Origin: Thermincola carboxydiphila
Lineage (GTDB): Bacteria; Bacillota; Thermincolia; Thermincolales; UBA2595
NCBI GenBank assembly: GCA_016841045.1
Contig: JAENZX010000014.1
Coordinates: 1-64,000, forward strand
Direction of reading: 5' to 3'
DNA: 64,000 bases
Shown: positions 1,627 to 5,114 of the stretch, piece by piece
How positions within the stretch are numbered: the stretch's first letter is position 1
How the letters are laid out: the number at the start of each line of letters is the position of its first letter
Translations under genes and position numbers: made by a program
The notes under the pieces: generated by a model
The model's input: the letters and a program-made list of their open reading frames with translations, nothing else
Database searches by the model: none
Told to the model about the DNA's origin: nothing

Positions 1627-1677
1627 CGGTAAAAGTTGGTAAAAGTGTTGACAAAAGAAACCAGGTTACGGGATAAT
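1627..1677 (+). promoter_or_regulatory. SigA-type promoter of the agr-like locus with a tandem repeat
   Basis: TTGACA at 1648-1653 and GATAAT at 1672-1677 are separated by 18 bases, a near-consensus vegetative promoter. Directly upstream GGTAAAAGT occurs twice in tandem (about 1628-1647) and touches the -35 box, so it may be a regulator site. A leader of roughly 120 bases rich in ACCAAA follows before agrD. Confidence 0.6.
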
Positions 1678-1801
1678 TAATAATATACCAGAACGTACCA
1701 AACAAATGCAAACCAAAAACATACCAAATACACCAAAAAATGTTTTAGAAAAGTTCCAAAAGAAATACCGGGGAGAAATAAAAAATAAGGGGGTGAAAGA
1801 T

Positions 1802-1951
1802 GTGAAAAAAATGATGGTTAAGATTTTCAGCACCGCTGCTCTCATTGCTGTAGCAAATTTTGTTATCAATGTTTTCGGAAGCATTCAACAGGCGGGAGCC
1901 TGCGGATGGCTTGGTGGTGAAATTGAAATGCCCAAGTCTCTTATTAAGTAA
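1802..1951 (+). CDS. agrD: AgrD-like cyclic lactone autoinducer precursor
   Basis: A 49-residue peptide starting at GTG 1802 behind AAGGGGGTGAAAG; an upstream ATG at 1706 has no ribosome site. It has an amphipathic leader (MKKMMVKIFSTAALIAVANF), then Cys34 and the stretch CGWLGGEIEMPKSL. The spacing Cys-x9-Pro and the tail GEIEMPKSL match staphylococcal AgrD (Cys-x4-DEVEVPKEL), so the predicted product is a thiolactone whose ring is Cys34-Gly-Trp-Leu-Gly38. In known systems AgrB removes the C-terminal tail and closes the ring; AgrB is two genes downstream. The family assignment is firm; the exact N-terminal end of the signal is not predictable. Confidence 0.85.
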   Translation: MKKMMVKIFSTAALIAVANFVINVFGSIQQAGACGWLGGEIEMPKSLIK

Positions 1952-1980
1952 TTTGACAACAGTGGAGGGAGCAAAGGAAA

Positions 1981-2454
1981 ATGGAACATCCTATAGTGAT
2001 AGTAAACTTAATTATTCAGAACTACCTAATGTCCTGGTTTATGGCGGGTTACATTTTCCGGCTCTCCCCAGGTATTAAACATCTACAATTTGGTCTATTT
2101 GGAGGTTTACTGGTTTATGCAACCAGAAGTTTGGTTCGCTTGGCAGGTCTTCCTATTGGAATAAATACATTAATTACTTTAATCTTATCTATTCCGATTT
2201 ATAAAGCTATTTTTAAGATTAAGAACTGGAAGGAACCATCCTTAATAAGCGTGTTAGCATATATAATGGTTTTATTTATCGAGATTTTAACTTCTAAGTT
2301 TAGCCTTAACTTATTTCATACAACACCTGATCTAGTGCTAAGTAATCCCACTCTTCACTTTAAGCTGCTTGCTCTTCAAAACCTTTGGATTTTCCTTTTT
2401 GCAATATTAATCATTGGTATTAATATGCTTTTGGGGATAAGGAAGGAGAAATAA
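1981..2454 (+). CDS. Membrane protein of the agr-like locus (possible stand-alone sensor domain)
   Basis: A 157-residue protein made almost entirely of about five hydrophobic segments, with no catalytic motif. It has no His/Cys protease pair, so it is not AgrB. In length and layout it looks like the N-terminal membrane domain of AgrC-type sensor kinases without any cytoplasmic kinase part. It begins 29 bases after agrD and abuts agrB (stop 2452-2454, next start 2455), so it belongs to the locus. A role as autoinducer receptor or exporter partner is inference from position. Confidence 0.55.
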   Translation: MEHPIVIVNLIIQNYLMSWFMAGYIFRLSPGIKHLQFGLFGGLLVYATRSLVRLAGLPIGINTLITLILSIPIYKAIFKIKNWKEPSLISVLAYIMVLFIEILTSKFSLNLFHTTPDLVLSNPTLHFKLLALQNLWIFLFAILIIGINMLLGIRKEK

Positions 2455-3048
2455 TTGGACATAGATGAATTTGCCTTAATACTTGCTAATGGGGATACAG
2501 GACAAGCAGAGATAAAGTCCTATTATATAAAAAGTATGTTGCATACCGCCAGTACATTTACGGCAATTGCAACAGCAAGTTATTTTTTAGATGTTCTTCA
2601 ATACGCATTAGTAATTATTCTAACATTAAGACTCTTTAGAACAAAAACCGGTGGATGTCATAGTAAATCAATTACCTTGTGTAAAGTTATGTCTTTTTTG
2701 ATTTTAGTAGGACTATCCTTGTTGGTTCCTGTAATTAAAATATCAAACGCTGCCATTACAATATGGACCGGATGCATTGCCTTGTTTGGGTTATATATGA
2801 TTTATAAAGTAGTTCCAATAGATACCCCACAAAGACCTATTATCAGCATGGAATTCCGCAGGAAACTCAAAATCGAAGCTTATATTTTTTTTCTGATTTT
2901 AATAGCAAGTGTTTATCTATTCTGTATTTATGATTATTTAAGATGGGGCTACGCAGTACTTTTAGCTTTATCTCTACAGCTGTTTTTAATGACAAAATTA
3001 GGCTTCTGGGTAGTTAATAGGGTTGACAATATCTTCAGTGTGCGGTAA
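2455..3048 (+). CDS. agrB: AgrB-like peptide-processing membrane protease
   Basis: A 197-residue polytopic membrane protein of normal AgrB length. The segment RTKTGGCHSKSITLC contains His69 and Cys76 seven residues apart, the spacing of the catalytic pair in AgrB (His77/Cys84 in S. aureus), after the family GG-x-H turn. About six hydrophobic helices surround it. AgrB cleaves the AgrD tail and forms the thiolactone. The TTG start follows the stop of the preceding gene without a gap, behind GGAAGGAGA. An extra Cys68 beside the catalytic His is unusual. Confidence 0.82.
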   Translation: MDIDEFALILANGDTGQAEIKSYYIKSMLHTASTFTAIATASYFLDVLQYALVIILTLRLFRTKTGGCHSKSITLCKVMSFLILVGLSLLVPVIKISNAAITIWTGCIALFGLYMIYKVVPIDTPQRPIISMEFRRKLKIEAYIFFLILIASVYLFCIYDYLRWGYAVLLALSLQLFLMTKLGFWVVNRVDNIFSVR

Positions 3049-3149
3049 ACCAGCTTTCGTGAAATGAATAAATGAATTAAAGGTATAGTCAATTAATCAA
3101 TAGAAGAAAAACTGTGTTGTTTTTATATTAAAGTAAGGCGGGGATTTTA

Positions 3150-3983
3150 ATGAAAAAAGAAATGAAAGAATACTTAAATTCTAGTATGCTTATTATTTCA
3201 ATTTGTTTTCTGTTGCTTTTTTGGCTAATTTTATTTAGTAGTGACTATTTTTATGGTCAAAGATTGGTAGTACATTTGACAGGAACGATACCATTGGCTA
3301 TTGTCGCAGGTGTTATTTTTATGATTATAATAAAACATTTAGTTAGCAAGGCAAAAACAGAACAATATCTTGAAGATACTATCAGGTCAAATCGCATTCA
3401 TGAAGCAGAAAAGAAAGAGTTTTTGGCAAAACTGCAGCAATTTGAAGGTTTAGCAGACTTATACTATGATATCAGAGCTAAATTAGATGCGTCACAAATC
3501 TACGAAGTCCCAATTCTGGGAGCCTATTTGCTGGAGAAAAAAGTCCTGCTCCAGTATGAGCAGGGAATAAAAGTAGAGTTTGAGTTAGGCGGGAACTTTA
3601 CGATCTTAAAACAAATTGAATCGGAAGACTTAATCAAGATTATTAATGATTCGATATCAAGAATCATAAAGATGCAAGAGGAATTTGGTAATAAAACGGA
3701 TCAGCTTCATTTTATAACATACGAAGAAGCAGACAGCTTTATAATTGATTTGTTTACCTTCATAGACTACAATTCTGCTCCCGGCAGAGATGCAGAAACA
3801 GTTTTCAACATTAACAATGAACAATTCATCTGGAATATGAAAAAAAGTTTTAATAAGTATAAAGCAGATATTGATGTCATTATTCCTGAAGAGGGAAAAG
3901 ATGAACGTAACTTTACGTCTCTTATCCGAATTAAATTTCCCCAGAAGGTAAAGGGTGAGGCTGTCTACAAACAAATAGGCTGA
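3150..3983 (+). CDS. Degenerate AgrC/Spo0B-type histidine-kinase-like protein
   Basis: 277 residues: two N-terminal membrane helices (about 12-32 and 42-62), a short coiled coil (65-100), then a soluble domain. The stretch VPILGAYLLEKKVLLQYEQG resembles the start of the ATPase part of CitA/AgrC-type kinases, and DLIKIINDSISRIIKM occupies the N-box position, but the N-box Asn and the acceptor-His region are not recognisable and no DxGxG or GxGxG box is present. I read it as a pseudokinase of the agr locus. ATG start behind AAGGCGGGG. No response regulator follows; the next gene is convergent. Confidence 0.5.
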   Translation: MKKEMKEYLNSSMLIISICFLLLFWLILFSSDYFYGQRLVVHLTGTIPLAIVAGVIFMIIIKHLVSKAKTEQYLEDTIRSNRIHEAEKKEFLAKLQQFEGLADLYYDIRAKLDASQIYEVPILGAYLLEKKVLLQYEQGIKVEFELGGNFTILKQIESEDLIKIINDSISRIIKMQEEFGNKTDQLHFITYEEADSFIIDLFTFIDYNSAPGRDAETVFNINNEQFIWNMKKSFNKYKADIDVIIPEEGKDERNFTSLIRIKFPQKVKGEAVYKQIG

Positions 3984-4020
3984 TTATTTGTGAATTACTA
4001 AGCCGTTGAAGACGGTATAC

Positions 4021-4046
4021 GGCAAGGTCCATCCTTGCCCTTTTTT
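4021..4046 (+). terminator. Terminator of the agr-like locus
   Basis: Stem GGCAAGG / CCTTGCC with a 5-base loop followed by CTTTTTT. It closes the agr-like unit just before the convergent HTH gene. Confidence 0.8.
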
Positions 4047-4067
4047 AAATTAATAGAAGATATATTA

Positions 4068-4310
4068 CTAATGTTTTGTTTCACCGCTACTGTAGGAGAA
4101 GAGTTCATTTAAACTGTAACCCTTACATACTTTGAGCACACCCTCAATAAATTTTCTGCCCGGATTTTGTTTATCTTTAAGAACCCTGAATAGATGTGAT
4201 CGGTCAATACCCATTTCAGAGGATACTGCCGACATGCAGATTTTTTCGCCTTTGTAATTTTCGCTTAATGCCTTAATAAATAATTCTTTATTTAGTACAA
4301 GTTTAGACAT
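4068..4310 (-). CDS. Small helix-turn-helix regulator (XRE-like)
   Basis: An 80-residue protein whose centre (KICMSAVSSEMGIDRSHLFRVL) has the spacing of an XRE-type helix-turn-helix, with a following helix and a short charged tail. No ligand or oligomerisation domain is present. ATG start behind AAGGAGGGCGTCAC. It is divergent to the S24-type repressor at 4476, and the shared intergenic region holds two perfect inverted repeats, so cross- or autoregulation is likely. The target is not known. Confidence 0.65.
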   Translation of the reverse strand: MSKLVLNKELFIKALSENYKGEKICMSAVSSEMGIDRSHLFRVLKDKQNPGRKFIEGVLKVCKGYSLNELFSYSSGETKH

Positions 4311-4368
4311 GTGACGCCCTCCTTACAACTTAATCTTTTCTTCCATTTTATAACATTTGGTGACAAAA

Positions 4369-4387
4369 GTAAACAGCTAATGTTTAC
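4369..4387. promoter_or_regulatory. Inverted repeat GTAAACA-N5-TGTTTAC
   Basis: A perfect 7-bp inverted repeat between the divergent regulator genes. Read leftward it overlaps a possible -35 element (GTTTAC) that lies 16 bases from TATAAA, so it is well placed as an operator for the leftward small HTH gene. Confidence 0.5.
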
Positions 4388-4413
4388 AAATTAAAACAAT
4401 GATTCAACTTTTT

Positions 4414-4442
4414 TTGTTGCCGAAAGTCAACACCCGCAACAA
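4414..4442. promoter_or_regulatory. Inverted repeat TTGTTGC-N15-GCAACAA
   Basis: A second perfect 7-bp inverted repeat, 34 bases before the start of the S24-type repressor. Its position suggests an operator for the rightward promoter; a clear -35/-10 pair was not found. Confidence 0.4.
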
Positions 4443-4475
4443 TATTAAAACTACATCAATTGGGAGTTGTTGATT

Positions 4476-5114
4476 ATGGGCTTTGGAATATATTTGAAGG
4501 GGTTAATAGATAAACGAGGATATTCTTATAGACAACTTGGAATGCTCTCGGGGATTAACCATACTTATATCTCAAAAATAGTCAGTGAAAAGATGGGACC
4601 GCCTTCGCCGGAGATACTCAAGAAACTTTCAAAGCCTTTGGAAGTTCCTTATGAGGAACTTATGGAAATGGCTGACTATATAGATATTAAGACGACCTAT
4701 AAAACGGAGCCAGTTCAAATGGTTTCGGAAGAGAAAATAGCTAAAGTTCCAATTTACGGAGTTATACAATCTGGAGAACCGCATTATTCCGCCGCGGAGA
4801 TTGAAGGCTATGAGTATATTGCAGAAAAAGAGGTAAGGTACGGAGAATATTTTTACCTTCGTATAACTGAAGATAGTATGCTCGGAAGCCGTATTTATCC
4901 TGGGGATCTGGTATACGTGCGGAAGCAAAAAAACATTGAAAACGGAGATATTGCCGTAGTATTGGTTGGCGAAAAGGCCACTCTCAGAAGAGTGTTTAAA
5001 GCTGATGGTAAAGTCATTCTACAACCGGATAATCCAAAATATGAACCCCAAATATACACTGAGGGAGATATCAAGATACTTGGTAAAGTGCTTCATGTTA
5101 AGTTTAAGCCGTAA
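4476..5114 (+). CDS. HTH/S24 peptidase repressor (CI/LexA-like fold)
   Basis: 212 residues: an N-terminal XRE helix-turn-helix (about 4-62; YRQLGMLSGINHTYISKIV), a linker, and a C-terminal S24 domain with the catalytic Ser in EDSMLGS (Ser134) and Lys in EKATLRR (Lys167). The cleavage-site region reads YGVIQSGEP, so the scissile pair would be Ser-Gly instead of the usual Ala-Gly. Such repressors cut themselves on a RecA/DNA-damage signal or act as non-cleaving S24 regulators. The XRE HTH separates it from LexA proper, which has a winged helix. ATG 4476 follows GGGAG by 9 bases, better than TTG 4467. No phage genes surround it. Confidence 0.85.
   Translation: MGFGIYLKGLIDKRGYSYRQLGMLSGINHTYISKIVSEKMGPPSPEILKKLSKPLEVPYEELMEMADYIDIKTTYKTEPVQMVSEEKIAKVPIYGVIQSGEPHYSAAEIEGYEYIAEKEVRYGEYFYLRITEDSMLGSRIYPGDLVYVRKQKNIENGDIAVVLVGEKATLRRVFKADGKVILQPDNPKYEPQIYTEGDIKILGKVLHVKFKP

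Follow-up and report, generated by a model that had tools for sequence, protein, structure and literature searches.

A variant Agr operon with a probable split receptor that ends in a putative pseudokinase

The operon described here lies in a 64,000-nucleotide stretch of DNA from Thermincola carboxydiphila (the window) and is a variant of Agr signalling with a probable split receptor that ends in a dead kinase. With the Agr system (AgrB-AgrD-AgrC-AgrA) it shares the AgrB peptidase, an AgrD-like precursor with its ring Cys at -5 and an AgrC-derived sensor; it differs in its two-gene receptor, its dead kinase, the lack of AgrA and the gene order agrD, M (a lone five-helix membrane protein), agrB, kinase-like gene. 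Our preferred reading, to which we give about an even chance, is that the AIP system works and that its split receptor terminates in a pseudokinase acting by binding another protein. The dead kinase, not the missing regulator, is the real oddity of the locus.

The operon and its peptide arm

Four genes with intact ORFs occupy window positions 1802-3983 on the + strand. An earlier sequence-only reading had described them in this order with their own promoter and terminator, and each of these elements was found:

1522-1549, + strand: intrinsic terminator of the upstream gene, an 11-pair stem followed by a T run, which isolates the operon
1648-1677, + strand: sigma-A type promoter, TTGACA-18-GATAAT, 11/12 matches
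1802-1951, + strand: agrD, cyclic peptide precursor, 49 aa (weak TIGR04223 match; Cys at -5 and PxxL tail)
1981-2454, + strand: M, lone five-helix membrane protein (lone-M profile, hhalign, model)
2455-3048, + strand: agrB, membrane peptidase, TTG start, 197 aa (PF04647; invariant residues)
3150-3983, + strand: putative 2TM pseudo-histidine kinase, 277 aa (alignments, hhalign, model)
4021-4039, + strand: intrinsic terminator of the operon, a 7-pair stem followed by CTTTTTT

The promoter is the best match between 1480 and 4480, a region in which weaker matches occur as often as they do after shuffling. Codon usage in all four ORFs resembles that of known genes, and shifted frames are negative. 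G+C content is mostly 31-36% across 1800-4200 versus about 40% in the flanks; the operon may have been acquired. The order agrD-M-agrB-kinase is absent from every other locus examined; in this respect, and for its dead kinase, the locus is unusual, whereas the split receptor is widespread and conserved.

Two kinds of repeats surround the promoter. A tandem GGTAAAAGTn repeat with an 11-base period (window 1629-1648) stands immediately 5' of the -35 box, and AACrTACCAAA occurs twice downstream of the promoter (window 1692-1728); both are possible operator sites. Directly after the operon, window 4071-5114 carries a small HTH gene on the - strand and a gene for an S24/LexA-like repressor.

The peptide arm is readily recognised in HMM searches for AgrB, which matches PF04647 with 89.9 bits (cut-off 23) and keeps R62, G66-G67, H69 and C76, all invariant among its relatives, H69 and C76 being the catalytic pair. 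AgrD, which begins at a GTG preceded by a good RBS (an ATG at 1706 would open a longer frame), reaches 13.4 bits with TIGR04223, below the cut-off of 19. It has a basic start, a hydrophobic helix, the ring Cys at -5 and an acidic tail with PxxL; the predicted ring is CGWLG and the recognition tail GEIEMPKSLIK, including PKSL. Ring Cys and PKSL tail align with the corresponding positions of 64 other AgrD candidates adjoining AgrB or M. The ring residue in the resulting 65 loci, window counted, is Ser in 36, Cys in 25 and Thr in 4. Judged by their residues, AgrD and AgrB look intact, and a peptide is very probably made and exported.

An AgrD of a distant genome (L126:3800-3922) has a predicted ring CGWLG identical to that of the window, which could reflect chance or cross-talk. 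Thr, an unusual cyclisation residue, occupies the ring position (TGxxS/G) in the AgrD of L003:8521-8643, L106, L107 and L120, which are regulator-less loci.

A probable receptor in two polypeptides

Neither M nor the kinase-like protein has a confident match in Pfam or NCBIfam. A profile built from 90 lone relatives gives M 46.5 bits, and none of 2000 shuffles exceeds 14.4 bits. In hhalign comparisons it matches other split M proteins (E 3.5e-6) and the N-termini of fused AgrC proteins (E 3.6e-4), and the profile of split M matches these N-termini at E 9e-21. Its model has five helices (pLDDT 90.9, pTM 0.83); no PDB match was obtained by a fold search with this model or by the M sequence profile. 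These sequence comparisons identify M as homologous to the sensor half that forms the AgrC N-terminus. The suspicion that it could be a fragment of a broken agrC is rejected because many families conserve M as a free-standing gene with a start and a stop of its own.

Aligned end to end, M and the kinase-like protein are collinear with one fused AgrC (SPOB_a + GHKL), which bears out the proposal of a split receptor: M corresponds to the first five helices, and the 2TM protein to the last two helices and the cytoplasmic part. Unlike AgrC, the window receptor consists of two polypeptides and lacks His, N-box and G2. M and the pseudokinase are likely to be the two parts of a single receptor.

The protein encoded at 3150-3983 combines two helices with a long coiled coil and ends in an alpha/beta domain. 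At its aligned catalytic positions the phospho-acceptor His is replaced by Lys and the N-box Asn by Asp, and the G2 loop is deleted, whereas His, N-box Asn and G2 Gly are all kept in 53/53 other M-adjacent 2TM kinases. The sequence-only reading was thus right in seeing a kinase-like half without catalytic residues. The H-box region is still recognisable (KKEFLAKLQQFEGL in the window protein versus RHDFLNHLQVI.GL in kinases), the stretch KKEFLAKLQQF standing for RHDFLNHLQVI with Phe and Gln retained. Except for the active-site pieces, the modelled domain appears to retain its length and fold. Among about 115 loci no second M-adjacent pseudokinase of the same kind was found.

Given the weak similarity to kinases, with a best single phmmer match at E 0.2, the 3150-3983 protein might have no kinase ancestry and be an unrelated 2TM output, another swappable partner of M. 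M does pair with other 2TM outputs, such as the HD-GYP proteins of L141 and L161. Against this reading, which we consider improbable, the protein scores 13.1 bits with the kinase profile versus at most 6.4 in 2000 shuffles, hhalign matches it to kinases at E 4.1e-5, and the alignment is collinear with KKEFLAKLQQF at the place of RHDFLNHLQVI. When the kinase family is aligned together with the window protein, the resulting profile finds S. aureus AgrC (E 5e-18) and also Spo0B. The model is GHKL-like: its Foldseek matches are GHKL domains, with the S. aureus AgrC ATPase domain in the top ten of PDB, in a model built on the kinase alignment and therefore biased toward the kinase fold. Kinase homology of the window protein is weak by sequence and above chance.

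The degenerate ATPase domain without ATP-binding motifs is shared with the phosphotransferase Spo0B; Spo0B, however, keeps its His and is soluble, whereas the window protein has Lys instead. DivL and the ChrS pseudokinase are also histidine-kinase-like, have no kinase activity and still signal, but they are not peptide receptors, are not split and have unrelated sensors. DivL (PMC4211667) and a pseudokinase variant of ChrS (PMC9491836) provide precedents for signalling by a dead histidine kinase.

The searches used, which covered 60 relatives, contigs of the genome collection, viral contigs and plasmids, yielded nothing close to the pseudokinase or the window AgrB. The sole match, L005, was discarded, being short and lying in a membrane protein that resembles a permease.

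Regulators and the output of the receptor

There is no response regulator gene near the operon on either strand. As noted earlier from the sequence, no AgrA-like gene follows, the next genes being the small HTH gene of the other strand and the S24/LexA-like repressor gene. The genome holds only two LytTR proteins, on contigs 55 and 62, neither near the operon. The contig 55 protein is part of a LytS-LytT pair and is for that reason ruled out as partner; the contig 62 protein adjoins a fused AgrC-like kinase. Spo0B and several stand-alone receiver proteins are also encoded in the genome.

The fused kinase and LytTR regulator of contig 62 (L034:5932-8029) have neither AgrB nor AgrD alongside.

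On contig 30 of the same genome, L003 is a regulator-less paralogue with an intact kinase, located between a YerC-like gene and hisZ; L026, from a related genome, has the same genomic context. The M proteins closest to that of the window are those of L084, L107, L026, L094 and L098, all regulator-less loci, and most of the closest AgrBs (L120, L098, L107) come from such loci too, where the order is AgrB-AgrD-M-kinase. The window locus fits this regulator-less split class, with a lone M adjoining AgrB and LytTR absent within 2.6 kb. It shares with the class (L003, L026, L084, L094, L098, L107, L120, L129, L132) the closest M and AgrB and the lack of an adjacent response regulator; the class differs from it by intact kinases and the order B-D-M-kinase. 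The idea that relatives always carry an intact kinase/LytTR pair next to this signal does not hold, such a pair being absent from L026, L084, L094, L098, L107, L120 and L003. Other members of the window's bacterial family have fused AgrC-AgrB-AgrD-LytTR arrangements (L025, L030-L033), which are other agr loci and not the nearest relatives of the window locus. Other agrBD loci that lack a recognisable receptor or regulator have been described, agr1 of C. difficile (PMC8534292) being one of them.

Two ways out had been proposed for the missing regulator: a signal read elsewhere or by a different mechanism. The first would place the reading of the peptide in the contig 62 fused AgrC-like kinase and its LytTR regulator, M and the pseudokinase only tuning the signal. 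It draws on the presence in the genome of one AgrC-like/LytTR pair without an agrBD of its own; yet this pair is unlinked to the window locus, might respond to the peptide of contig 30 or to some other ligand, and has in its sensor half the most distant M (20.8 bits). We regard this reading as unlikely and favour the second, in the form of a functional non-catalytic output, which we rate as an evenly balanced proposition.

The favoured non-catalytic mechanism would run as follows. AgrB would cut AgrD to yield a five-residue thiolactone peptide with the ring CGWLG. The five helices of M and the two encoded at 3150-3983, jointly equivalent to the membrane sensor of a normal AgrC, would sense the peptide. 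Peptide binding would alter the pseudokinase in both its coiled coil and its degenerate ATPase domain. Because the pseudokinase cannot phosphorylate itself, its output would be exerted by contact. The most natural target would be the intact M-kinase pair of L003 on contig 30, since both receptors share sensor and dimer architecture; the pseudokinase would then be a decoy or modulating partner of this kinase. We hold the paralogous kinase as a tentative candidate, and a receiver protein of the sporulation relay would be the alternative contact target.

A different view of the same locus is that of decay: a former regulator-less D/B-M-kinase system whose kinase was inactivated under relaxed selection, with AgrB and AgrD either working or on their way out. 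The restriction to a single genome, with no relatives found in the collection, viral contigs or plasmids, the loss of all catalytic motifs at once and the AT-richness of the locus speak for it. They are countered by four intact ORFs with gene-like codon usage, the functional residues retained in AgrB and AgrD, the promoter and terminator, and the kinase-like domain that appears to keep its length and fold outside the active-site pieces. Decay appears to us a minority possibility, and a working system with a non-catalytic output, for which we see about one chance in two, is favoured over it. As an extreme case in which the output half is devoid of any kinase chemistry, the window makes pseudokinase signalling directly testable.

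M and its partners across Bacillota

A profile of nine M sequences was used to survey 398 genomes of the phylum (Bacillota). It matched in 141 of them, and most of the listed matches are lone ORFs of about 150-210 aa. AgrB is present in 131/141 M-positive versus 34/257 M-negative genomes (Fisher p 2e-59). About 115 M loci were examined in two sets, the counts of the first being limited to 69 loci with full flanks. AgrB lies within 2.6 kb of lone M in 58 of these 69 fully covered loci. The partners found at the 58 M and AgrB loci are a 2TM kinase with LytTR (22), a 2TM kinase without LytTR (17), other kinases (9), a membrane GGDEF/HD-GYP protein (9) and a 2TM HD-GYP protein (1). No LytTR gene occurs within 2.6 kb in 36/58 of them; the regulator is absent from the window locus, as had been observed, but its absence is no peculiarity. 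Likewise, the expected synteny was recovered to the extent that lone M widely adjoins AgrB, often without a regulator, and not for the exact order D-M-B-kinase, found only in the window. The second set of loci gave the same pattern, plus 13 M-AgrB-GGDEF/HD-GYP loci, which brings M with GGDEF/HD-GYP proteins to over 20 loci in all.

At the M-AgrB-GGDEF/HD-GYP loci peptide signalling is apparently wired to c-di-GMP enzymes. We see it as an even prospect that M is a detachable, general Agr peptide-sensing subunit used across the phylum with swappable outputs, namely kinases accompanied by LytTR or not, large kinases, the GGDEF/HD-GYP and HD-GYP enzymes that turn over c-di-GMP, and the pseudokinase. 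On this view c-di-GMP would come under the direct control of peptide quorum sensing, which would act free of phosphorylation in the window genome. Should lone M prove to bind the peptide as one half of a split receptor, it would provide a marker for finding the receptor and output of agrBD systems in which neither receptor nor regulator is obvious, and would make the AgrC sensor a subunit testable alone. M, AgrB and AgrD repeatedly occur with c-di-GMP enzymes, which suggests that the peptide signal passes directly to a second messenger; no such route was described in the titles and abstracts of the open-access papers searched. In these same titles and abstracts we found no description of lone M, of a split AgrC or of agrBD with a GGDEF/HD-GYP gene, no name for the regulator-less split agr class, and no sensor subunit that is detachable and has swappable outputs, c-di-GMP enzymes among them.

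A ~550-aa membrane GGDEF/HD-GYP protein follows M-AgrB (with AgrD where it was looked for) in many families (L102, L113, L115, L122, L127, L128, L135, L138, L143, L150, L156, L160, L162, L165, L166, L172, L174, L175, L176, L180, L184). In the M-linked protein of L143 the GGDEF motif reads ANDEF, and its cyclase part may be inactive. A 2TM HD-GYP protein occupies the usual place of the 2TM kinase after M at L141:5046-5969 and L161, and a 2TM GGDEF/HD-GYP protein takes that place at L163.
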